A program made the translations under genes and the position numbers. DNA of 10,409 nucleotides from assembly GCA_030670605.1 (NCBI GenBank), contig DAOVBK010000030.1, positions 1 to 10,409 on the forward strand, written 5' to 3'. Source of the DNA: Candidatus Stahliibacteriota bacterium (lineage in GTDB: Bacteria; Hydrothermota; Tepidihabitantia; SM23-42). Of the stretch, positions 1 to 9,946 are shown piece after piece (position 1 is the first letter of the stretch; the number at the start of each line of letters is the position of its first letter). Below the pieces are notes generated by a model. That model was given only the letters and a program-made list of their open reading frames with translations. It made no database searches and had not been told where the DNA came from.

Positions 1-3000
1 CGAAATCGCCTCGTATGGACACAAGCTACTACAGAGCCCACAACCGACACAGATCTCCTCATTCACCTGTGCAACCGTTGCTTCAGCATAGTATTTGTCG
101 TTCGCCAGAATTGTTGCTGCGCGTGCAGCGGCTGCTCGTGCTTGAGTGATTGTTTCAGCAATAAACTTCGGACTGTGGGCGAGCCCTGCAACGAAGATAC
201 CTTCAGTAGCAAAATCAACAGGGCGCAACTTCACATGCGCTTCGAGGAAATAGCCATCACTGTTGAGCGGAACCTTGAGCATTTTGGCAATATGTGCATT
301 ATCAGGATCAGGCACAATGCCAGTTGACAGAACGACAAAATCCGGGTTGATGTCGATCTCCTGTTTCAATACCGGTTCAAGAACTCGCAGGGAAAGTGTG
401 CCGTTGTTTGTATGCAACACAGGCTTTCGGTCACTTTCGTAGCGAATGAACATCACCCCTGATTCACGTGCTTTCGTGTAGAAATTTTCTTTGAAACCAT
501 ACGTTCTCACATCACGGTATAACACAAACACTCTGGCGTGCTGATTCAACTCGGTGAGCTTCAACGCATTCTTAATGGCCTGCGAGCAGCAACGTCTGCT
601 ACAATACAAATGACCATTTTCTCGAGACCCAACACACTGAATCATGACAACTGACTTGATGTCTTTAATGCGTTCATCGCCATCTATGAGCATATGCTCA
701 AACTCTTTCTGGGTGATAACACGACTATCATGACCATACTGATACTCGCTTGGCTGATACTCCTGGGCACCGGTTGCGACGATAATGACACCATGTTGAA
801 AGACATGACGCTTTTCATCTTTGCACCGAATGTGTGACTCGTAGTTCCCGATAAATCCGTGTACCGCCTCAATCGATGCGCTCGTGAACACCCGAATAAG
901 CGAATGTCTCTGTACCTCATCAATCATTCTCGTAAGGAATGGTTGAACATCATCACCCTCAATCGTGTAATATATGTTGCGCGCATGACCGCCGAGCTCT
1001 GGTTCCTTTTCCACCAACGCCACTTCGAAACCCTGTTGGGCAAGGGAAAAACTGGCGACCAGCCCAGCAATGCCACCACCAATCACGAGCGCTTTCTGTG
1101 TCACGTCTATTTCGACGCGTTTCAGTGGCGTCAGCAGCACTGCTTTGGCAACTGCCATCTTAACGAGCTCCTTGGCTTTCTCTGTTGCTTCGCGCGGTGT
1201 CGACATGTGTATCCATGAACACTGGTCACGTATGTTCGCCATTTCGAACAGGTATGGATTCAATCCTGCCTCCCGAACGGTCTCGCGGAATAATGGCTCA
1301 TGGGTGCGCGGTGTACATGAAGCAACGATAACACGATTGAGTTTATGCTTATGTATCATCTCAATGATCCGCTTCTGACTATCTTGCGAACAGGTATACA
1401 TGTTATCCTCGACATATACAACACTGTCGAGCTTCCTTGCATATTCAACGACTGCAGCGACATCAACATACGCCCCGATATTGATGCCACAGTGGCAGAT
1501 GAAAACACCTGCTCGCGGTTCCTCGCCGCGCACATCTCTTTCTGGAGGCAACTCCTTTTTCTCAATCAGACTGTGCCTCTTCGGTGCGAGCAGCTCCATA
1601 ACCTGTGCAGCTGCAGACGATGCTTGTGTGACCGTTTCAGGAATGTCTTTTGGCTCAACACACGGTCCAGAAACGTAAATACCTGGACGACTTGATGCGG
1701 TCGGTGCAAACGCAGGAGTGCTACAGAAACCGGCCTCATTGAGTTCAATACCGAATGTCTGTGCGGTTTTCTGAATATCACGCGGCGGGTGCAAACCACA
1801 CGAGAGGATAATCATGTCAAATTCACGTGAGTGAATCTTACCATCATCACCGGAATACTTAACGAGCAAGTCCTTTGTGGATGATACTTCGTCTATGGAC
1901 GAGGGACGGCAGCGTATGTAGTGAACACCACTCCTCTTTGCCTTTTCATAGTATTCATCAAAACCTTTGCCAAACGCACGCATATCCATAAAAAATATCG
2001 TGCATTCAAGACCTGGCGAATGTTCCATCGCAATGAGCGCTTCTTTTGTCGCATACATACAGCAAACCGATGAGCAGTATCCATACTCATCGTCACGGCT
2101 GCCAACGCACTGTATGAATGCGATGCGCTTCGGTTCCTTTTTGTCGCTCGGTCGTACGATGTGCCCACTGAATGGCCCTGAGGCTGAAAGAATACGCTCA
2201 AACTCAATCGATGTTACAATGTTTTCAAAGCGACCATTTCCAAATTCCCGTTTCTCTTTTCCGTTGTATACATGCGAGCCAGCTGATAGCACGATCGCAC
2301 CAACTGGTACTCTCAATATTTCTTCGTGTTGTTCAAAATCGATTGCCTTCGCTTCACAAAGGTCCTGGCAGATCTTGCATGTATCATTCTTGAAATGCAC
2401 ACAGTGCTCACGATCAATGATCGCCACATTCGGGACGGCTTGTGGAAAGGGAATGCGTATGGCTGAACGGGTTCGTAAGCCTTCATCAAACTCGTCAAGC
2501 AATGGTCGTTCTGGTCTTGTGCCGAGCTTCTTGAGTCGTTTTGACGCCGTCGGGCAGATTGAGTAACATGCCCCGCAGACCATACATTGCTCAGATGCGA
2601 CATCAAATGGAGGTGCGATTTCACGTTTGTCACCACGTTGCGTGAAAGCAATAATATCACGCCCCATTCGCTCACGACACATGCGAATGCACAAACCGCA
2701 GCGTATACAATCATCATCCCGTTCGACGAAAGGAGTTGAAGCAACGCCGAGCATGCGCGCCATTTCCTGGACCTTCTCGGCATGGGGCGCACGCGCCATC
2801 ATCAATTGGATCATCGTTCTTCGAATGTTGTGTAGTTCTGGTGTTTTCGTTCGGACGGTTATCCCATCCTCTGCGGGATAAATGCACGAACTCTGTATCT
2901 TCTTCCAGCCGTTCTTCTCTATCTCAACAACACACAGGCGACACGCACCGTAAGAACTGAGTGCTTTGTGGTAGCAGAGGGTTGGTATGTCTATATTCAG

Positions 3001-3075
3001 TCGGTGTGCAGCCTCAAGGATACTCGTGCCTCGCTCGACAGTAATGGGCTGACCATCAATGGTTAGAGAAACCAT
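1..3075 (-). CDS. NuoG-like N-terminus fused to HdrA (C-terminal part plus second HdrA module), partial at left edge
   Basis: Reading the minus strand from ATG 3075 gives 1025 codons without a stop up to base 1, so the 3' end lies outside. Residues 1-190 resemble NuoG/HydA N-termini: a plant-type [2Fe-2S] site (Cys34, 45, 48, 64) and two [4Fe-4S] sites (Cys123/126/129/133 and Cys164/167/170/174). The NuoG His-Cys3 cluster is absent. From about 195 (DEFDEGLRTRSAI, FPQAVPN) the sequence is HdrA without its N-terminal Rossmann fold: [4Fe-4S] site Cys225/233/236/240 and QCVGSRD with the CSSVCC cysteines (322-338). A second HdrA module starts near 520 (GVFICHCG, CTPRTHEP 587-594, FAD motif GGGIAGL 666-672, QCVGSRE 813-819, CVGCGLCSSLC 1009-1019). 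It probably passes electrons between NuoF/NADH and HdrA flavin and its partners; this role is inferred. The start is uncertain: an in-frame GTG at 3105 adds ten residues. Confidence 0.88.
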   Translation of the reverse strand, partial: MVSLTIDGQPITVERGTSILEAAHRLNIDIPTLCYHKALSSYGACRLCVVEIEKNGWKKIQSSCIYPAEDGITVRTKTPELHNIRRTMIQLMMARAPHAEKVQEMARMLGVASTPFVERDDDCIRCGLCIRMCRERMGRDIIAFTQRGDKREIAPPFDVASEQCMVCGACYSICPTASKRLKKLGTRPERPLLDEFDEGLRTRSAIRIPFPQAVPNVAIIDREHCVHFKNDTCKICQDLCEAKAIDFEQHEEILRVPVGAIVLSAGSHVYNGKEKREFGNGRFENIVTSIEFERILSASGPFSGHIVRPSDKKEPKRIAFIQCVGSRDDEYGYCSSVCCMYATKEALIAMEHSPGLECTIFFMDMRAFGKGFDEYYEKAKRSGVHYIRCRPSSIDEVSSTKDLLVKYSGDDGKIHSREFDMIILSCGLHPPRDIQKTAQTFGIELNEAGFCSTPAFAPTASSRPGIYVSGPCVEPKDIPETVTQASSAAAQVMELLAPKRHSLIEKKELPPERDVRGEEPRAGVFICHCGINIGAYVDVAAVVEYARKLDSVVYVEDNMYTCSQDSQKRIIEMIHKHKLNRVIVASCTPRTHEPLFRETVREAGLNPYLFEMANIRDQCSWIHMSTPREATEKAKELVKMAVAKAVLLTPLKRVEIDVTQKALVIGGGIAGLVASFSLAQQGFEVALVEKEPELGGHARNIYYTIEGDDVQPFLTRMIDEVQRHSLIRVFTSASIEAVHGFIGNYESHIRCKDEKRHVFQHGVIIVATGAQEYQPSEYQYGHDSRVITQKEFEHMLIDGDERIKDIKSVVMIQCVGSRENGHLYCSRRCCSQAIKNALKLTELNQHARVFVLYRDVRTYGFKENFYTKARESGVMFIRYESDRKPVLHTNNGTLSLRVLEPVLKQEIDINPDFVVLSTGIVPDPDNAHIAKMLKVPLNSDGYFLEAHVKLRPVDFATEGIFVAGLAHSPKFIAETITQARAAAARAATILANDKYYAEATVAQVNEEICVGCGLCSSLCPYEAIS

Positions 3076-3084
3076 GTTCTTTTT

Positions 3085-3105
3085 GCTCGCGAGCTCCTTC
3101 TTCAC
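3085..3105 (-). promoter_or_regulatory. Translation-start region of the NuoG/HdrA fusion: alternative GTG and spacer palindrome
   Basis: ATG 3075 has no Shine-Dalgarno at normal distance. AAGGAG lies 18 nt upstream, and the intervening bases hold a perfect 10-bp palindrome, GCTCGCGAGC (3085-3094). If that folded, AAGGAG would sit about 9 nt from the ATG. The competing start is in-frame GTG 3105, preceded by a weak AAGGG. Family N-termini (M-x-x-LTIDG) favour 3075. The palindrome is seen; its function is inference. Confidence 0.35.
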
Positions 3106-3134
3106 GTTTCCCTTGCTTCGTTTTCTCCTTTTAT

Positions 3135-4985
3135 TCACACGACCACCGGTGATACTTTCCTGATTGCGCCGAACTTCTCAGGACAACTCGTTATGCATAT
3201 ACCGCACTTTATGCATTTTGATTGATCAATGGTATGTACTTTTTTCGGTTCGCCTCGGATTGCGCCCGTTGGGCACTTCTTTGCGCAAATCGTACATCCG
3301 CGGCACAATTCTGCATCAATAGTATAGGAAATGAGTGCCTTACAGACGAGGGCAGGACACTTCCTGTCTTTGATATGTGCGCTATATTCATCACGGAAAT
3401 ACCTCATCGTTGAAAGAACTGGGTTAGCAGCCGTCTGCCCTAATCCACAGAGTGATGCAGTTTTAACAACACGACCAAGATTTTCCAGCAGTCCAATATC
3501 ACCCTCAGTACCATTGCCTTCAGTAATCCGTTTCACAATCTCATACATTTGTTCTGTGCCTTCACGGCACGAAACGCACTTACCACACGATTCATCTTTC
3601 AAAAAAGACAAGAAATAGAGAGCAACATCAACCATACACGTATCTTCATCCATGACAACCATGCCACCAGACCCCATCATTGAGCCAACCTCAGTCAGTT
3701 TCTCATAATCGACCGGGAGATCGAGCAACGTGACTGGAATGCAGCCGCCTGACGGGCCACCGGTCTGCACTGCTTTGAATTTCTTGTTATTGGGTATGCC
3801 TCCGCCAATATCATAGATAATCTCACGCAGCGTGATCCCCATCGGCACCTCGACAAGCCCAGTGTTGTTGACCTTGCCAACAAGGGAGAAAATTTTCGTG
3901 CCCTTACTTTTCTCTGTACCGATGTGTGCGTACCATGCATGGCCTTTGTCAATAATGAGGGGCACATTCGCCCATGTCTCGACATTGTTGTTATTTGTTG
4001 GTTTTCCCCACAAGCCTGACTCTGCAGGAAAGGGCGGTCTCATTCGCGGCTCAGGAGAACGTTCGCCTTCGATTGAAGCAATGAGCGCAGTCTCTTCACC
4101 ACAAACAAAAGCACCGGCTCCCTGACATATTCGCACGGTGAAGCCAAATCCTGAATCGAATATGTTTTCACCAAGGTAGTTGTTCTGTTGCGCGTGATCT
4201 ATTGCTATACCTAAGTTCTCAATTGCCAGCGGGTATTCGGTCCGTACATACACAATACCTTCAGCGGCACCAATCGCATACGCGCCGATGATCATGCCTT
4301 CAAGCACACTGTGGGGATTACCTTCGAGAACGCTCCTATCCATATACGCTCCGGGATCACCTTCGTCCGCATTACACACGACGTATTTTGGCGCTCCAGC
4401 AGCTTTGCGACAGATCTCCCATTTTTTGCCGGTCAGGAATCCTGCACCGCCACGTCCGCGCAGCCCAGACTTTGTAATTTCCTCAATGACCTGTTCAGGC
4501 GTCATGCCTGTGAGCACCTTCTTGAGTGCCTGATAGCCACCTAATGCCACATAATCCTCGATCTTTCTTGGATCAATCCGTCCATTGCTCCCGAGAACGA
4601 GTCGATGTTGTTTCTTATAAAAGCTGACATCGTCAACATGAACTGCGCGTTCATCGGTAACTGGGTCAACGTACAGCAAACGTTCGACAATCTTTTTTCC
4701 GTTCAGCAAGCCATCGATTATCTCACCAACATCTTCGGGCGTAACACGTTGATAGAAAATGCCTTCAGGAAAAATGACAACAATAGGTCCTCGTTCACAG
4801 AACCCGTGACAGCCTGTTGTTTTTATTTCAATCGTGTCCTGCACGTTTCTCTTTCTTACTTCCTCAATGAATGCGTTGCTCACCTTCTCACAATGATATG
4901 CGTGACAGCCAGTACCGCCACACACACTTATGCAATATGTGTCGGCTCGGGTGACTGACCTCTTGCGTTGCCCCGGACTCGTCAT
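3135..4985 (-). CDS. NADH-binding NuoF/HydB/HndC-type flavoprotein subunit
   Basis: This 616-residue protein is the NADH/FMN entry subunit of a soluble Nuo-like or hydrogenase-like complex; its length and domain order fit the HydB/HndC group. Residues 15-95 form a thioredoxin-like [2Fe-2S] domain (Cys22, 27, 59, 63). The NuoF core follows: GLRGRGGAGF (174-183), NADEGDPG (205-212) and GAFVCGEETA (291-300) for NADH and FMN. An SLBB-like stretch comes next, then the N3-type [4Fe-4S] site Cys467/470/473/513. The C-terminus carries two ferredoxin [4Fe-4S] motifs (Cys561/564/567/571 and Cys591/594/597/601). No signal peptide or membrane segment is evident, so it is probably cytoplasmic. Start ATG 4985 has GAGGT seven bases upstream, overlapping the stop of the preceding gene. 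The lack of hydrogenase genes here suggests it serves the HdrA fusions instead. Confidence 0.95.
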   Translation of the reverse strand: MTSPGQRKRSVTRADTYCISVCGGTGCHAYHCEKVSNAFIEEVRKRNVQDTIEIKTTGCHGFCERGPIVVIFPEGIFYQRVTPEDVGEIIDGLLNGKKIVERLLYVDPVTDERAVHVDDVSFYKKQHRLVLGSNGRIDPRKIEDYVALGGYQALKKVLTGMTPEQVIEEITKSGLRGRGGAGFLTGKKWEICRKAAGAPKYVVCNADEGDPGAYMDRSVLEGNPHSVLEGMIIGAYAIGAAEGIVYVRTEYPLAIENLGIAIDHAQQNNYLGENIFDSGFGFTVRICQGAGAFVCGEETALIASIEGERSPEPRMRPPFPAESGLWGKPTNNNNVETWANVPLIIDKGHAWYAHIGTEKSKGTKIFSLVGKVNNTGLVEVPMGITLREIIYDIGGGIPNNKKFKAVQTGGPSGGCIPVTLLDLPVDYEKLTEVGSMMGSGGMVVMDEDTCMVDVALYFLSFLKDESCGKCVSCREGTEQMYEIVKRITEGNGTEGDIGLLENLGRVVKTASLCGLGQTAANPVLSTMRYFRDEYSAHIKDRKCPALVCKALISYTIDAELCRGCTICAKKCPTGAIRGEPKKVHTIDQSKCIKCGICITSCPEKFGAIRKVSPVVV

Positions 4986-4995
4986 TCTTTATACC

Positions 4996-5883
4996 TCATA
5001 CTTGTTCTTTTGATTTGTGATATTCATCGATCACTTTCGCCACCTTATCCGGTGACATGTGACCATAATACTCACTGTCGACCATAACGACTGGCGCGAG
5101 CGCACAGGCGCCAACACAGTTTACTGTTTCCAATGTGAAAAGCATATCATCAGTATTATGTCCTGAGGGTATACCCAATATACGCTCAAACTCTTCGAGA
5201 ACGCGCTTTGCACCACGCACATGGCAGGCAGTGCCCTGACATACCTTGATGACGTGTTTGCCCCGTTCAGTCAAACTGAAGGCCTTGTAGAATGTAGCAA
5301 CATTGTAGATCAGACTCAAAGGTATGTTGAGTTCTCGAGAAACAAACTTAAGCAACTCCACGGGTAGGTAGTTGTAGTCGTGATTTATCCTTTGCAGTAC
5401 CGGCATCAGACTGCCTCTCTTACCGCGATATTCCTTGACTATTGCCTCGATCCTGTGCTGCTCCGACTCACTCAGCGCTATTTCTACCGGAGTATGATCA
5501 ACATATATGGCTTGGCGAACCGGACAGTTCTGCATGCATAAACCGCATCCTGTGCATTTTTCTTCATCGACGTAGCGCGGATTTTTCTTTATGGTAACAA
5601 TGTAATTGCCTGATTCGCCAGCCACGTCTGTGATCTCCGCATTTGTCACAACGGTGATATTGGGATGGCGTGCCACACTCACAAGTTTCGGCGCAAGAAT
5701 GCACATAGAACAATCGTTCGTCGGGAATGTCTTATCCAGTTGGGCCATGACCCCACCAACGCTTGGAGCCTGTTCCACAAGATAAACCTTGAACCCAGAG
5801 TCAGCAAGGTCAAGCGCAGCTTGGATACCTCCAATCCCGCCACCGACGACAAGAGCAGCACCTATTCTATCGACACTCACCAT
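4996..5883 (-). CDS. HdrA N-terminal domain fused to NuoE-like [2Fe-2S] subunit
   Basis: This 295-residue protein joins two families. Residues 1-130 are the HdrA N-terminus: Rossmann FAD motif GGGIGG (14-19), the family motif FPTNDCSMC (Cys58, Cys61) and one [4Fe-4S] site (Cys110/113/116/120). The HdrA similarity ends just after this, at [13 protein letters not shown]. Residues 140-295 are a NuoE/HndA thioredoxin-like domain with the [2Fe-2S] pattern C-x4-C (215, 220) and C-x3-C (256, 260). NuoE normally relays electrons between the NuoF FMN and its partners; the attached domain could add a flavin or dock the split HdrA partner, which is inference. ATG 5883 follows the stop of the response regulator with two bases between and has AAAGG seven bases upstream, so translation is probably coupled. 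The missing rest of HdrA is encoded two genes downstream. Confidence 0.92.
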
Positions 5884-5885
5884 GT

Positions 5886-6281
5886 CTAAACCTTTAGTAG
5901 CTTCTTGATACGATCAACCAAAACACCTGCCTCAACCGGCTTGTCAACATAGTCATCAACCGGTAGCCAGCGCTCATCGCCAGCTGCAGAGGCAAAGCGG
6001 AGTGGATACTTCTGGTCAATCGCTGTCAACATGAGGATGGGAATCTCCTTGGTTTCAGGAGTGCGTTTCAGCTGCCGGCACAGATCAAAACCCGAATGGT
6101 CTGTTTCCATCATGACATCACAGACAATCAAGTCAGGTTTAGCTATGTCCAGAGCATCCAGACACTCTTGTGCCGAAGCACACGTTGTGACAACATAGCC
6201 GCTCTTCTCCAGCACTATTCCTGTTGCCTCTAGGAAATCCCTATCGTCATCGACGAGCAAAATTCTCTTCTTGTTGCTCAT
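5886..6281 (-). CDS. Single-domain response regulator (receiver only)
   Basis: The 131-residue product is a stand-alone CheY-like receiver. The acidic pocket Asp11-Asp13, phosphoacceptor Asp55 (VCDVMM), Thr86 and Lys114 (VDKP) are all present, so it should be phosphorylatable. There is no output domain. The stretch before Lys114 ([17 protein letters not shown]) is longer than in CheY. The start at 6281 is fixed by a near-perfect Shine-Dalgarno, although the frame is open to 6506. The gene begins inside the end of the kinase gene (35-nt overlap) and is followed after two bases by the HdrA/NuoE fusion. Position suggests the upstream kinase as phosphodonor. It may adjust complex activity by protein contact or act as a phosphate relay or sink; neither can be read from sequence. 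Confidence 0.93.
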
Positions 6282-8010
6282 GATGAACCTCCTTTCTCCG
6301 GCGATGTGTGCCGGAGGGAACCACAAACACAAATCTAGCAAATCTTTTTGGTCGTTTATTCCCGGCCTTCTCCGCACCTGGACGCATGTCTGAACGGTGA
6401 GAGACAACAGGAGTATTATCAATGACATACCCTGATTCTGCCCGTACCGACCCTTTATGCTGCTCCGCAATGATTCGTACGACGTGAAGACCGAGACCCG
6501 TTCCACTCATGCCGACCGTGGAAAATCGTACGTACTTCTCAAAAATGTCCTCGAGCTTGTCCTGATCAATTCCTATGCCCTCATTAAAAACACTGAGTTC
6601 ACACATGCCGTTGGATGTTCTGTACACACATTGAATTTCCGTATTGGAAGTACCGTATTTTATGGCATTGTTTATCAGATTACTGAGGGCAATTCTTATT
6701 AGATCAGGATCGCAGTCCATTGTCTTTTTTCCCTGAATAGTCGTCTTAACAGTCATATGCTTGTGTTTCAGTATTGCATGAAACTCACGCACTGTTGCAT
6801 CAATGATATCTTTCTCGACATGACACTGCTTTGTTTGACACACCAAGGTGCCCTGCTCACCTTTGTAGGAAATAATATAGTTGCGAATCATGTCGTATAG
6901 CAATTTGAGGCTGCTCAGAGCGCTAAGGAGCATCTCGTTCCTTTTCTGAACACCTATTGTGCGAGCAAACCGTGCATTTGTGAGAGCACTAATACCCATC
7001 ATTGCGGTACCCAATGTACCTTTGCATTCGTGTACAAAGAAACCCATCATCCAATTCAGATGTTTCGTCGTGTTGTACATTTCTGTGTTGTCACGCACTA
7101 TTTCGAGCACCTGCGTGATACGCCCGCGCTTGTTCTTAACAGGCAGCGCGATCACGTCACAGTAGTGTTCATTCCCATCGCTATCGAAATTGACATGCAT
7201 ACATTTCACGGGTTGCTTTTTTTTGTAACACTGGCGCACCGGACATATAGATTCATCACATGGTTTGAGTGAACGACGACTAACCCGGTAGCAGTACTCA
7301 CCGATCACATTCTCTCTCGAAACATCATGTGATGTCAGGTATGATGTATTACAACTCTGGATTTTGAGACTCCTATCGAGGATTGCGACACCTTCATCCA
7401 TTGTTTCAAGAATGAGCGTTCCAAAATCTATCTGATGCTGTGTAGCGTGGAGCTTGAACCATTCAAGGAGCTGGCTTCTTGAGAAATACCACATTCGTCC
7501 TATCTTCTTGGCGGGCAATTCCCCACGCCTTGCATACATGCTCACAGTCGCCTTGCTCACGTTGAGCATGGCACTTGCTGCAGCGAGTGTGAGAATAGAA
7601 TCATCTTTACAGGGCACCTTGTTGACTTTTTCACGATGACGCGTGTATCGTCGATTCAAGGCATTTTTAAGAGCTAACTTTATCTCCGCGATATCAATTG
7701 GCTTTAGTGAAAAGTAGAAAACCCCCTGTTCCCTTACTCGTGTCGCGAGTTCGATTGAGTCATCACTCGAAGTAACGATTATGGGCAGCAGTCTGTTCGC
7801 TCTCTTTATCATTGGCAGCAGCTCACGCCGGTGTCTGCCCGTGGCTTCGACATTAAGAATAAGCACATCAATCCGATCAGAATTCACCTCCTGCATCAGC
7901 TTCTCCGGGTTATTGATGCGCTCCACAACGTACCCATCCCGCTGCAAGCTCTTCATAATCCTTGCGACACTTGGTTGGTCATCATCCATTATCGCCACAT
8001 TGGCAGGCAT
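6247..8010 (-). CDS. Soluble hybrid histidine kinase: degenerate receiver, HTH, Cys-rich PAS, kinase core
   Basis: The protein has 587 residues and no membrane segment. Residues 1-120 are a receiver fold with acidic residues 9-11, Ser/Thr 80-82 and Lys103, but the phosphoacceptor position is Asn53 (LILNVE). Residues 138-187 resemble an excisionase/MerR-like HTH (LTLAAASAMLNVSKATVSMY and GRMWYFSRSQLLEWF). Residues 195-310 are a PAS domain with cysteines at 240, 251, 256, 261, 270 and 284. The kinase core has His327 (FFVHECKGTLG), N-box NLINNAIKYG (444-453), G1 NEGIGI and G2 GTGLGL (503-508). A basic, low-complexity insert (about 527-556) precedes the last strand. The start at 8010 is set by AAGGAG and by a sigma-54 promoter just upstream. 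It probably senses a cytoplasmic redox or ligand signal; the signal is unknown. The last 35 bases overlap the response-regulator gene. Confidence 0.92.
   Translation of the reverse strand: MPANVAIMDDDQPSVARIMKSLQRDGYVVERINNPEKLMQEVNSDRIDVLILNVEATGRHRRELLPMIKRANRLLPIIVTSSDDSIELATRVREQGVFYFSLKPIDIAEIKLALKNALNRRYTRHREKVNKVPCKDDSILTLAAASAMLNVSKATVSMYARRGELPAKKIGRMWYFSRSQLLEWFKLHATQHQIDFGTLILETMDEGVAILDRSLKIQSCNTSYLTSHDVSRENVIGEYCYRVSRRSLKPCDESICPVRQCYKKKQPVKCMHVNFDSDGNEHYCDVIALPVKNKRGRITQVLEIVRDNTEMYNTTKHLNWMMGFFVHECKGTLGTAMMGISALTNARFARTIGVQKRNEMLLSALSSLKLLYDMIRNYIISYKGEQGTLVCQTKQCHVEKDIIDATVREFHAILKHKHMTVKTTIQGKKTMDCDPDLIRIALSNLINNAIKYGTSNTEIQCVYRTSNGMCELSVFNEGIGIDQDKLEDIFEKYVRFSTVGMSGTGLGLHVVRIIAEQHKGSVRAESGYVIDNTPVVSHRSDMRPGAEKAGNKRPKRFARFVFVVPSGTHRRRKEVHHEQQEENFARR
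6287..6295 (-). promoter_or_regulatory. Strong Shine-Dalgarno for the response regulator
   Basis: AAAGGAGGT on the minus strand lies five bases before ATG 6281 and inside the 3' end of the kinase gene. It decides the start of the 131-residue receiver against the longer open frame and suggests re-initiation by ribosomes finishing the kinase. Confidence 0.85.
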
Positions 8011-8014
8011 GTTT

Positions 8015-8020
8015 CTCCTT
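8015..8020 (-). promoter_or_regulatory. Ribosome binding site of the hybrid kinase
   Basis: AAGGAG on the minus strand, four bases before ATG 8010. It fits a leader of only about 19 nt from the predicted sigma-54 start site and excludes the open-frame extension to 8100. Confidence 0.75.
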
Positions 8021-8039
8021 TTTCTCCACAGTACTAGAT

Positions 8040-8055
8040 AGCAAAAAACATGCCA
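8040..8055 (-). promoter_or_regulatory. Sigma-54 (-24/-12) promoter of the kinase-HdrA/Nuo operon
   Basis: The minus strand reads TGGCATGTTTTTTGCT, preceded by C. Against the recalled sigma-54 consensus YTGGCACG-N4-TTGCW, only the C after TGGCA differs (T here). Invariant GG (8054-8053) and GC (8042-8041) are correctly spaced. The predicted start site is near 8029. An NtrC-family activator is encoded immediately upstream, and two dyads lie at suitable enhancer distance. No experimental support exists. Confidence 0.82.
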
Positions 8056-8157
8056 GAATGAGGTGCGCTGGTAATCAGGAATAAAGTGCCGATAATGCAT
8101 GACTTATTCTGTACTCAGTCTCTGTTCAATCGAGTTGTCTCATAAGTGGCGTGAATG

Positions 8158-8314: not shown

Positions 8315-9718
8315 TTAGGAGTTTTGCCCTTGCTTTATGGCATATTTCCGCATCAGTGCCTGGAAGTTCTGTCGTCTCATCCCAACTTCCTGCGCTGCTT
8401 TGGTTATGTTCCATTCGTTTCTCTTGAGGGCATCAAGAAGAAACGCTTTTTCGATTTTCTCAACTGCCTGCGAGCGTATCTGCCTTTTATGAAGTTTCAA
8501 TTCTTCATTTGTTCTGGGCGTCGCAATATGGAAGCACACACGCTTTCCCTGAATATATGCAGGTAAACACTGAATATCAATAGTATCGCTTTCACTCATG
8601 ATGACCATGCGTTCAATGAGATTCTCCAGCTCTCGTACATTACCCGGCCATTCATACTCGACAAGATTCTGCAGTGCTGCAGAAGAAATATTGACAACGC
8701 TCTTTTCACATTTCCTTTTGTATTTCTCTAAAAAGTGCTGTACGAGGAGTGGGATATCTTCTCGCCGTTTGGCAAGAGGCGGAATAACGAGCGGAACGAT
8801 ATTAAGCCGGTAGAAGAGGTCATCACGGAATTGCTGTTCCTTTATCATTATTTCCAGATTCTGGTTTGTCGCAGCGACGAGCCGGATGTCAACCTTGATG
8901 TTCTTCACGCCACCGACCTGCCTGAACTCTTTTTCCTGAAGAACTCTTAACAGTTTTGACTGAATACCCATGCTCAGGTCGCCAACCTCATCCAGGAAAA
9001 ACGTGCCACCATCCGCAACCTCAAGCAGCCCACGCTTGGTCATTGTCGCACCAGTAAATGAACCTTTAACATGTCCGACCAATTCGCTCTCTAAAAGCGT
9101 TTCGGGCAGTGCACCACAATCAACAGCAATGAATTTTCTGTCCTTGCGCAATGAGTGATGATGAATAGCACGAGCAATCAATTCCTTACCAGTACCGCTG
9201 TCGCCACGAATAAGAATGGTTGAATCAGTTGGTGCAATTTTCTCAACCAGTCTAAAAATCTCCTGCATTACCTTACTTGTGCCAATGATGTTATCAAACT
9301 GATATCGCTCACCCAGTTCTTGTTTTAACAAGACGTTTTCAGCATCTATCCTTTTCTTCTCGAGAGCCTTGCTCACCCGTATCCGCAATTCATCAGGGGT
9401 GAAGGGCTTCACTATGTAATCAACCGCCCCAGCCTTCATCGCCTCAACGGCATTCTCAACTGTCGCATAGGCAGTAATAATAATGACAGGAATGTGCGGT
9501 TTGAGTTTGCCTACTGTTTTCAGCACTTCGATACCATCAATGCCTGGCATTTTGAGGTCGACAAGTGCTAAATCCCATTCTTCGTCTTTGATTTTTTCGA
9601 TTGCCTGGTAGCCGTCGTCGACTGCGACAACATCGCGGCCATCCTCTTCTAAACACGCATGTATTGATCTTCGGACAATCTCTTCGTCATCAACAACGAG
9701 AATTCTGTTTTGCGCCAT
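8315..9718 (-). CDS. NtrC-family sigma-54-dependent response regulator
   Basis: The 467-residue protein has the three NtrC domains. The receiver (1-123) has Asp10/Asp11, phosphoacceptor Asp54 (LVDLKMPG), Thr82 and Lys104. The AAA+ domain (about 142-370) has Walker A GDSGTGKE (172-179), the sigma-54 contact loop GSFTGA (219-224, Ser instead of the usual Ala), Walker B FFLDE (Asp243, Glu244) and arginine-finger region FRDDLFYRLN. The C-terminus is a Fis-type HTH (NITKAAQEVGMRRQNFQALM). It should hydrolyse ATP to open sigma-54 promoters, and the best candidate target is the downstream operon, possibly with the hybrid kinase as phosphodonor. The start is ambiguous: ATG 9718 gives the usual short N-terminus and follows a predicted transcription start; ATG 9730 (four extra residues) has AAGGA five bases upstream. 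The open frame reaches 9877, but that part looks non-coding. Confidence 0.94.
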   Translation of the reverse strand: MAQNRILVVDDEEIVRRSIHACLEEDGRDVVAVDDGYQAIEKIKDEEWDLALVDLKMPGIDGIEVLKTVGKLKPHIPVIIITAYATVENAVEAMKAGAVDYIVKPFTPDELRIRVSKALEKKRIDAENVLLKQELGERYQFDNIIGTSKVMQEIFRLVEKIAPTDSTILIRGDSGTGKELIARAIHHHSLRKDRKFIAVDCGALPETLLESELVGHVKGSFTGATMTKRGLLEVADGGTFFLDEVGDLSMGIQSKLLRVLQEKEFRQVGGVKNIKVDIRLVAATNQNLEIMIKEQQFRDDLFYRLNIVPLVIPPLAKRREDIPLLVQHFLEKYKRKCEKSVVNISSAALQNLVEYEWPGNVRELENLIERMVIMSESDTIDIQCLPAYIQGKRVCFHIATPRTNEELKLHKRQIRSQAVEKIEKAFLLDALKRNEWNITKAAQEVGMRRQNFQALMRKYAIKQGQNS

Positions 9719-9728
9719 GATGTAAAGC

Positions 9729-9756
9729 ATTATAGTCCTTCTATTGCCGATGTCAA
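9729..9756 (-). promoter_or_regulatory. Perfect-consensus sigma-70 promoter of the activator gene
   Basis: The minus strand has TTGACA (9756-9751), 16 bases, then TATAAT (9734-9729): both hexamers match the consensus exactly. The predicted transcription start is about 9722-9720, only two to four bases before ATG 9718 and downstream of ATG 9730. Transcripts from it would be almost leaderless. A chance 12/12 match is unlikely but not excluded. Confidence 0.6.
9736..9740 (-). promoter_or_regulatory. Shine-Dalgarno for the alternative activator start (ATG 9730)
   Basis: AAGGA with a five-base spacer before ATG 9730. It lies inside the spacer of the sigma-70-like promoter, so it can only work on transcripts that start further upstream. 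It supports a second, four-residue-longer form of the activator. Confidence 0.45.
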
Positions 9757-9838
9757 TTACGTTAACCATGGACGTGATGGGGTCAGGGCAAGGACGCTGG
9801 AGATCGTACTGGTGACTCGTATTTCGTATTCGTTGTAC

Positions 9839-9863
9839 GCAGAGAACGCAGAAAAAGCGCAGA
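9839..9863. repeat. GCAGA cluster 1
   Basis: GCAGA occurs at 9839, 9848 and 9859 (spacings 9 and 11), mostly preceded by C or AC. It matches a second triple cluster at 10181-10214, suggesting an interspersed or decayed intergenic repeat family. Confidence 0.4.
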
Positions 9864-9946
9864 TTCACGCGAATCAACAGAAAGGAGCTTCTCGATGCGT
9901 CCTATCTGCGATAGGACTTACTCGAAGAGTACTATGATTTATTGTT

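Follow-up and report, generated by a model that had tools for sequence, protein, structure and literature searches.

We analyzed a stretch of 10,409 nucleotides, hereafter the window, from contig DAOVBK010000030.1 of a Candidatus Stahliibacteriota bacterium (assembly GCA_030670605.1), in which the gene for the heterodisulfide reductase subunit HdrA, an electron-bifurcating flavoenzyme of anaerobic microbes, is divided around nuoE, nuoF and the start of nuoG. All features lie on the minus strand. The first gene (4996..5883, 295 amino acids; open reading frame, Pfam and HdrA profile) encodes an HdrA-N::NuoE fusion that we call P1. Its residues 1-122 (5518..5883) comprise the first halves of the HdrA flavin adenine dinucleotide (FAD) domain and of the ferredoxin inserted in it. 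They carry an FPTNDCSMC motif (5701..5727), whose second cysteine is Cys197 by counting along the alignment with 5odc_A, and the first cysteine motif of the split ferredoxin (5524..5556), placed by the alignment of P1 homologues. A NuoE-type [2Fe-2S] thioredoxin-like domain (BfuC, Pfam PF01257) follows at 4999..5469. The second gene (3135..4985) encodes NuoF (BfuB, 616 amino acids), with an N-terminal 2Fe-2S thioredoxin-like domain, a domain for flavin mononucleotide (FMN) and reduced nicotinamide adenine dinucleotide (NADH), and two C-terminal [4Fe-4S] motifs (Pfam). The third (1..3138, 1046 amino acids, cut by the contig end) encodes P3, a NuoG-N::HdrA-C::HdrA2 fusion. Here NuoG-N (BfuA, 2530..3075) has one [2Fe-2S] and two [4Fe-4S] motifs, and HdrA-C (1585..2496) holds the second half of the inserted ferredoxin, with its cysteine motif C246/C254/C257/C261 at 2356..2403, and the rest of the FAD domain. 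HdrA2 comprises an N-terminal Fe-S domain (1123..1521) and an FAD domain without inserted ferredoxin and without the Cys197 motif (103..1101); the beginning of a C-terminal ferredoxin domain (1..69, Pfam) reaches the contig end. The gene order given in the preliminary description of this DNA, HdrA-N::NuoE, NuoF, NuoG::HdrA-C::HdrA2, thus holds in the window.

The two HdrA fragments cover the HdrA profile end to end and meet at a single cut site: P1 matches positions 141-258 and P3 positions 259-561 (sequence profile; the P3 model concurs). HdrA is thus encoded by two genes with nuoF between them and not as a single polypeptide, in line with the split that the preliminary description had suggested. 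The cut falls in the linker of 4-6 residues that joins the two cysteine motifs of the inserted ferredoxin. In the intact HdrAs of the fetched loci, CxxCxxCxxxC(P/R), a linker of 4-6 residues and then, for example, DEFN or SEFD follow one another in 94 of 95 proteins, the sole exception being L036 with a linker of 19 residues. At the split loci, the HdrA part of P1 stops at the first cysteine motif and that of P3 opens at DEFD or SEFD. Two-cluster ferredoxins ordinarily bind each cluster through three cysteines of one motif and the last cysteine of the other. With this topology, each cluster of the split ferredoxin would draw ligands from both chains. An R-x-AI piece that the preliminary description had seen at both junctions was found at only 2 of 36 loci and in 9 of the 120 homologues listed, and this rarity led us to reject it as a duplicated piece of the junction.

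The residues around the cofactors are kept in both fragments. G14/G16/G19, the FPTND C58 x M60 C61 motif, the ferredoxin cysteines C110/C113/C116/C120 and the four cysteines of the NuoE [2Fe-2S] domain typical of BfuC (C215, C220, C256, C260) were invariant in 27 of 27 aligned P1 homologues, and TFPTxDCxxC, which contains Cys197, occurred in all 35 P1 frames that reach the motif. The four ferredoxin cysteines of P3 were invariant in 19 of 19 proteins (16 of class A and 3 of class B, the two architectures defined below); thus all eight cysteines of the inserted ferredoxin are present, four in each chain. E314 and K365 of P3, which by counting along the 5odc_A alignment correspond to E356 and K409, were also invariant in 19/19. 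E356 and K409 are described as marks of bifurcating HdrA (PMC12054007), and Cys197 as a trans ligand of the N-terminal cluster (PMC9012536).

We scored the dinucleotide-binding motif with the pattern G[GAS]G[IVL][AGS]G. There was no match ahead of the second HdrA in any of 21 class A P3 proteins and none anywhere in the class B P3 proteins of 10 loci, some of which end at contig ends; P3 has no Rossmann start of its own in place of P1. Since GxGxxG ahead of HdrA2 is found in P1 only, a complete first FAD domain needs P1, and motif and C-terminal half come together only in P1 and P3 jointly. The coverage, the recurrence described below and the motif missing from P3 all support the proposal, made in the preliminary description, that the locus would encode a split flavoprotein with an NADH module. 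The second HdrA of P3 lacks the Cys197 motif in 21/21 class A proteins and has an N-terminal Fe-S domain. This complementarity matches that reported for tandem HdrA heterodimers (PMC9012536), so the split HdrA1 and HdrA2 may be mutual partners.

The genes lodged in hdrA resemble bifurcating enzymes. The nine best solved relatives of NuoF are all bifurcating (NiFe- and FeFe-HydABC, NfnABC, StnABC and the tungsten enzyme 9mqx), and its terminal Fe-S domains are those of BfuB. The closest solved chain to the NuoE domain by sequence is 7t2r_C of the bifurcating NiFe-HydABCSL, and the nearest relative of NuoG-N over its length is 9mqx_A, a tungsten aldehyde oxidoreductase; the NuoG-N clusters were assigned by analogy with 9mqx. 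A type 2 BfuA is marked by the lack of clusters A3 and A5; the Pfam matches do not include the family of the His-ligated NuoG [4Fe-4S] cluster. The cassette nuoE-nuoF-nuoG-N thus appears to be a BfuC-BfuB-BfuA set of the bifurcating type. NuoF is longer, 1,030-1,100 amino acids, in L132 (8572-11784), L135, L136, L138, L142 and L149; in L132, the one checked, a GltD-like domain (Fer4_20 + Pyr_redox_2, Pfam) stands in place of the C-terminal ferredoxin and may add NADPH as a substrate.

The same pair of fusions, which the preliminary description had suggested looking for, recurs in many genomes. A protein search returned at least 120 P1 homologues, and all 120 listed match both the HdrA-N and the NuoE models and contain GxGxxG and TFPTxDCxxC. 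A search centred on the junction gave 668 proteins at E <=1e-30; among the best 120 of these, 118 span 99-100% of P3 120-340, and the names found among the matches listed are mostly heterodisulfide reductase subunit A or FAD-dependent oxidoreductase. Among named genomes, a scan returned 79 loci, 14 of which have the arrangement, 13 as fusions and L030 with its frames separate, and 150 relatives yielded P1 in at least 23 genomes, in two of which a contig end cuts it. After annotation and removal of duplicates, 36 loci had P1, 26 of class A and 10 of class B (two of the latter assigned through their P3). P3 lies on the same stretch in 31 of the 36, with NuoF between in 30; for L128/G003, L140/G113 and L025 it is in another part of the assembly, at the start of another contig in the last case. 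The named bacterial hosts are Stahlbacteria/WOR-3, Spirochaetales/Spirochaetes, Fibrobacterota, Sulfotelmatobacter (Acidobacteriota), Sedimentisphaerales (Planctomycetota), Cloacimonadota, Desulfobacteraceae and another deltaproteobacterium. For the archaeal hosts, an uncultured archaeon and Altiarchaeales WOR_SM1_SCG, there is a single assembly apiece, and a binning error could account for either.

Most of these loci come from metagenome assemblies, and the genome of the window is 79% complete with 5.7% contamination, which raises the question of an assembly or binning artefact. However, 31 loci from many groups share this order, 30 of them with NuoF included, the operon is intact in two single-contig genomes, G020/L129 of class A and G056/L130 of class B, and every one of the 120 listed P1 homologues joins HdrA-N to NuoE. 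We regard an artefact as extremely improbable. In a third single-contig genome, G003, the operon is broken: P1 and a 443-residue NuoF lie near 1.836 Mb (L128/L178), a full P3 is found at 1.754 Mb, next to an OsmC-like gene, and another P3, truncated at its start, at 2.762 Mb (L170, L171). Other variants concern one or two loci. In two genomes, at L172 (7583-7996 / 7029-7667) and L173 (2255-2668 / 2584-3207), HdrA-N (137 amino acids) and NuoE overlap in different frames, representing a fission of P1 or a frameshift. L172 also has a NuoG-N fused to a glycine-cleavage H-like domain (3905-5188), and in L139 NuoF and P3 are separated by a CBS-HATPase gene and a PHP-domain gene (10341-11324 and 11674-12414).

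The loci fall into two architectures. Class A, the type of the window, has a P1 of ~290 amino acids, NuoF and a P3 of ~1,090 amino acids, and its split HdrA is a tandem one. Downstream in L129, L131, L133 and L134 (=L054) lie MvhD (FlpD), an HdrC-like ferredoxin and an intact tandem HdrA with the domain order of the split one, then a second MvhD, FeS genes and, where the stretch extends, FAD/NAD reductase genes, which we take to resemble the Flx set. In class B, a P1' of ~430 amino acids (N-domain, HdrA-N, NuoE) is followed by NuoF and a P3' of ~590 amino acids (NuoG-N, HdrA-C). L130 and L142-L146 have HdrC- and HdrB-like genes upstream, L022 has an intact hdrA there, and MvhD lies downstream in L022, L130 and L143. 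Class B looks like a canonical HdrABC operon that holds nuoEFG within hdrA. In L143 (1707-4764), P1' and P3' adjoin and the upstream gene fuses the HdrC- and HdrB-type domains.

We compared the descent of the two halves in a tree of concatenated N and C halves (82 of 107 rows, after pruning of intact HdrAs that shared more than 72% identity with a row retained). Approximately unbiased (AU) tests and half-only trees used 78 rows, leaving out the long branches L156_477, L063_18216, L063_7244 and L050_6267. Of the 36 P1 loci, 27 were complete enough in both halves (20 of class A, 7 of class B); all trees were of the 'quick' kind, and the N-only tree has few columns. In the 82-row tree, class A lay inside the group of HdrAs that come first in tandem proteins, and class B inside the canonical HdrAs; the HdrA-N of P1 thus groups with HdrA lineages and not with other flavoproteins. 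Class A together with L036 formed one clade (support 98.9), and class A without L036 was rejected (AU p 0.008). A single clade for class B was rejected (AU p 0.007), as was a single origin of all split HdrA genes of both classes (AU p 4e-8). The N-only and C-only trees agreed in placing L022 nearest to the intact hdrA beside it, L143 nearest to L072 and the five other class B rows in one group (98 and 100), which included the intact HdrA L088_4831. A profile comparison gave values above zero for both halves in 20/20 class A rows and below zero for both in 7/7 class B rows. The halves of P1 and P3 are inherited jointly.

This agreement bears on how the arrangement arose. Two flanking copies of hdrA, truncated in opposite directions around a nuo operon, would give the same genes with the same function and no insertion. 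The raw material for such an origin exists, because an intact hdrA lies immediately upstream of P1 in L019, L020 and L022. However, both truncations would need to end in the same short linker with neither gap nor overlap, and the N and C halves belong to the same lineage in both classes. We consider an origin from two copies unlikely.

The trees of the cassette differ from those of its hosts. A clade of class A and class B was not rejected in the NuoE tree (p-AU 0.56) or, close to rejection, in the NuoG-N tree (p-AU 0.075), and L022 (class B) and L026 (class A), both from Spirochaetales, were sisters in both (98 and 88). Seven loci with an intact tandem HdrA beside nuoE-F-G (e.g., Geobacter L077), which we infer to be Bam-type, stood apart in separate NuoG-N and NuoE clades (100 and 99). 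The Nuo trees thus allow a grouping of the classes that the HdrA trees reject, and homologous cassettes sit at the same site of different hdrA lineages. In the first 30 columns past the junction, 7/7 class B rows were class A-like (5.4 to 19.9); they were mixed in columns 31-60 and canonical-like in all HdrA-N bins and in HdrA-C beyond 60 columns. The controls positive in the junction bin were 0/18 canonical (leave-one-out), 3/47 intact tandem (<=1.9) and 18/20 class A rows. The identical site and the class A-like tract can be explained by homologous recombination through the conserved flanks, and the cassette was probably transferred between hdrA lineages in this way.

Two kinds of one-chain HdrA may be derived from this arrangement or related to it. 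The tandem HdrA of L036 (Methanoperedens) is intact, nests in class A and carries the long linker VGKAKAAQDGKERKIKPIP, whose end resembles P3 linkers such as NKPIPIP in L024. We read it as a re-joined gene, the short likeness of the linkers being weak evidence when taken alone. In L040 and L070 (Desulfobulbaceae), a tandem HdrA made as one chain has 193 residues inserted at the cut site; the HdrA halves of both loci fall among other tandem HdrAs, outside class A. For the two [4Fe-4S] motifs of the L070 insert, the best matches were NuoF C-termini (45%, 7e-13, Bam-type loci first), with C-terminal ferredoxins of HdrA a close second (2e-11), so this assignment is not unique; for the remainder they were the NuoG parts of P3 proteins (7e-14). 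On these matches, the insert looks to us like a collapsed cassette.

Taken together, these results suggest that the operon of a bifurcating NADH dehydrogenase became nested in hdrA with both its ends fused, and that P1 and P3 co-assemble into one FAD site wired to NADH; judging from the sequences, we consider this likely. A fuller version can be offered only tentatively. In it, the insertion of nuoEFG would have created two obligately interlocking chains, with each cluster of their common ferredoxin bound by cysteines from both, and a single machine in which a site of FMN/Fe-S bifurcation is wired to a site of FAD bifurcation; the cassette would then have spread through recombination to further hdrA lineages at the same codons and left an excision scar in the linker in Methanoperedens. 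In Desulfobulbaceae it would have collapsed, leaving one chain in which ferredoxin domains derived from NuoF and NuoG lie between the two parts of HdrA.

Several observations weigh against nesting and co-assembly. P1 and P3 are unlinked in G003, which is rearranged and has the 443-residue NuoF, and in G113; P3 was not found in the assemblies of L029 and L149, whose P1 contigs are short; L143 has no NuoF; and HdrA-N and NuoE are separate frames with stops between them in L030, which through its labelling was also counted outside the tested A+B cassette group. As to descent, the intact L088_4831 sits inside the five-member class B group, an unfused NuoG-N from the window's own genome (L159) falls inside the A+B cassette clade, and the seven class B rows stand for about three lineages. 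At the junction, 2 of 20 class A rows were negative, and the similarity could be convergence next to NuoG. The predicted structures are of mixed quality. The single-chain model of P1 is weak (mean predicted local distance difference test score, pLDDT, 66.9; 44-46 in the half-ferredoxin), which fits a fragment that needs a partner and proves nothing. Against the PDB, this model gave NuoE-type chains only among the 50 matches listed by each of Foldseek and VIA-align 2; the HdrA half was not recognised by fold in this weak model, and an HdrA fold is compatible with this result. The model of P3 residues 1-525 is better (mean pLDDT 76.1) and matches the HdrA structure 5odc_A as well as 9mqx_A; its residues 162-187 and 203-239, which belong to the junction and the ferredoxin, have pLDDT below 50. 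Finally, the P3 profile search aligns the last [4Fe-4S] motif of NuoG with the first motif of HdrA (A2 positions 166-506 versus 5odc_A 242-567), so P3 could complete the ferredoxin alone, only the FAD domain needing P1.

The last point, together with the distant coding of P3 in G003 and G113, would also suit another role for P1, in which its HdrA-N is a mere docking module that mimics HdrA and the first half of P3 works without FAD, with no split flavoprotein at all. Against docking, none of 27 P1 homologues departs from the glycine motif, FPTNDCxMC or CxxCxxCxxxC, and P3 keeps the E356/K409 equivalents and ferredoxin cysteines in 19/19; moreover, both halves track one HdrA lineage, and L030 retains HdrA-N as a frame of its own. 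We judge docking quite improbable and retain the split flavoprotein as the better explanation.

The split HdrA with its Nuo cassette resembles known designs that combine HdrA with an NAD(P)H module. In the open-access literature, as far as the sources were accessible, we found no description of this split; most subscription papers lie outside that scope. One close likeness is to type III HdrA/HdrL, in which an NAD(P)H-oxidising module is placed in the region of the inserted ferredoxin (PMC12054007, PMC9430772, PMC2702500). In type III HdrA, a GltD domain inserted in this region is proposed to create an NADH port (PMC12054007), and a tandem HdrA of Moorella whose first TrxR domain is interrupted by GltD is described as oxidising NADH (PMC9430772). 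As in the window, the host HdrA in the Moorella protein and in L088 is the first of a tandem pair. However, the type III insert is described as one domain in one chain, whereas here three genes unrelated to GltD leave HdrA as two polypeptides; in L088 the insert starts ~30 residues later than our cut site, after PNAYAIEK, and Pfam detected no GltD-type domain (Fer4_20) in P1, NuoF or P3 of the window, which sets them apart from type III HdrA. NuoE, a NuoF with extra terminal Fe-S domains and a BfuA-like NuoG-N are shared with the Bfu family (HydABC, NiFe-HydABCSL, Wor-Bfu, NfnABC, StnABC), whereas here a split HdrA joined to BfuC and BfuA serves as the third-substrate module. The accessible text of the paper on that family names many third-substrate modules, including Bam with an HdrA-type module, and in it we found no HdrA-fused type (PMC9304861). 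An HdrA-type module and a NuoE-F-G module likewise work together in Bam complexes (PMC9304861). Bam gene clusters keep the Nuo genes separate from HdrA, and the Nuo subunits of the loci that appear to be Bam-type fall in other clades. In type II tandem HdrA, as here, HdrA1 is reported to have Cys197 and no N-domain and HdrA2 the reverse, in a different order (PMC9012536), but here HdrA1 is divided over two genes.

By domain adjacency and by analogy with type III and Moorella HdrA, a route for electrons can be proposed. P1 and P3 would fold jointly into a single FAD-binding HdrA, each contributing four cysteines to its inserted ferredoxin, and the graft would connect this ferredoxin port to the [4Fe-4S] chain of NuoG. 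Electrons would then pass between NADH (and ferredoxin at the FMN of NuoF), NuoE/F, NuoG, the split ferredoxin and the HdrA FAD, and from there on to HdrA2, HdrBC or MvhD-type partners. In the class of the window, the split HdrA1 would give Cys197 and HdrA2 the N-terminal Fe-S domain, and the pair may be its own heterodimer. Both flavin sites may be reversible, and electrons may run either way. They could thus leave HdrA through the cassette, the low-potential branch of the FAD reducing NAD+ or ferredoxin at NuoF, instead of entering from NADH. Methanogen HdrABC is described as releasing low-potential electrons to free ferredoxin through the inserted ferredoxin (PMC9012536) and Bfu enzymes as reversible (PMC9304861), but the GltD-interrupted Moorella HdrA was measured oxidising NADH (PMC9430772). 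We hold exit through the cassette to be a real possibility, although the less probable direction.

The neighbouring genes in the window are regulatory. A response regulator (5886..6287) lies immediately upstream of P1, an order also found in L128, L129, L131, L133, L134 (=L054) and L150 (=L023), and is preceded by a receiver/helix-turn-helix/PAS histidine kinase (6247..8100) and a sigma-54 NtrC-type response regulator (8315..9877; all Pfam, minus strand). Contig C248 of the same genome resembles the continuation of the cut operon (L155). Ahead of the NuoG start (MVSLTIDG in the window), P3 has a Lys/Arg-rich N-terminal stretch (3078-3138), also present in L054, L023, L129 and L131, which may be a real tail or reflect a misplaced start codon. 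In-frame TGA codons occur at the HdrA Cys197 position in the window's own genome (L154, contig C100, 1880-3679 and 6323-6802, one of these frames having a TGA also at the cysteine preceding Cys197), in L082 (9965), in L128 (16121-18556) and in L030 (9694-9879), where the codon falls within the split HdrA-N itself. This suggests a selenocysteine HdrA. A selenocysteine tRNA was not confirmed in the genome of the window, the best model match, just above the cut-off, being a tRNA-Leu according to ARAGORN.

If nesting and co-assembly are correct, the locus would be an unusually clean insertion of a multi-gene cassette, fused at both ends, that yields an obligate split enzyme conserved across phyla. 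A protein named NuoE and one named HdrA or FAD oxidoreductase can then together make up a single HdrA, and counts of HdrA and of complex I in anaerobe genomes may be wrong. The inserted ferredoxin of HdrA would be a recognisable socket into which NAD(P)H modules plug, with GltD in type III and Nuo/Bfu here, and the coupling of HdrA to NADH would become directly testable.

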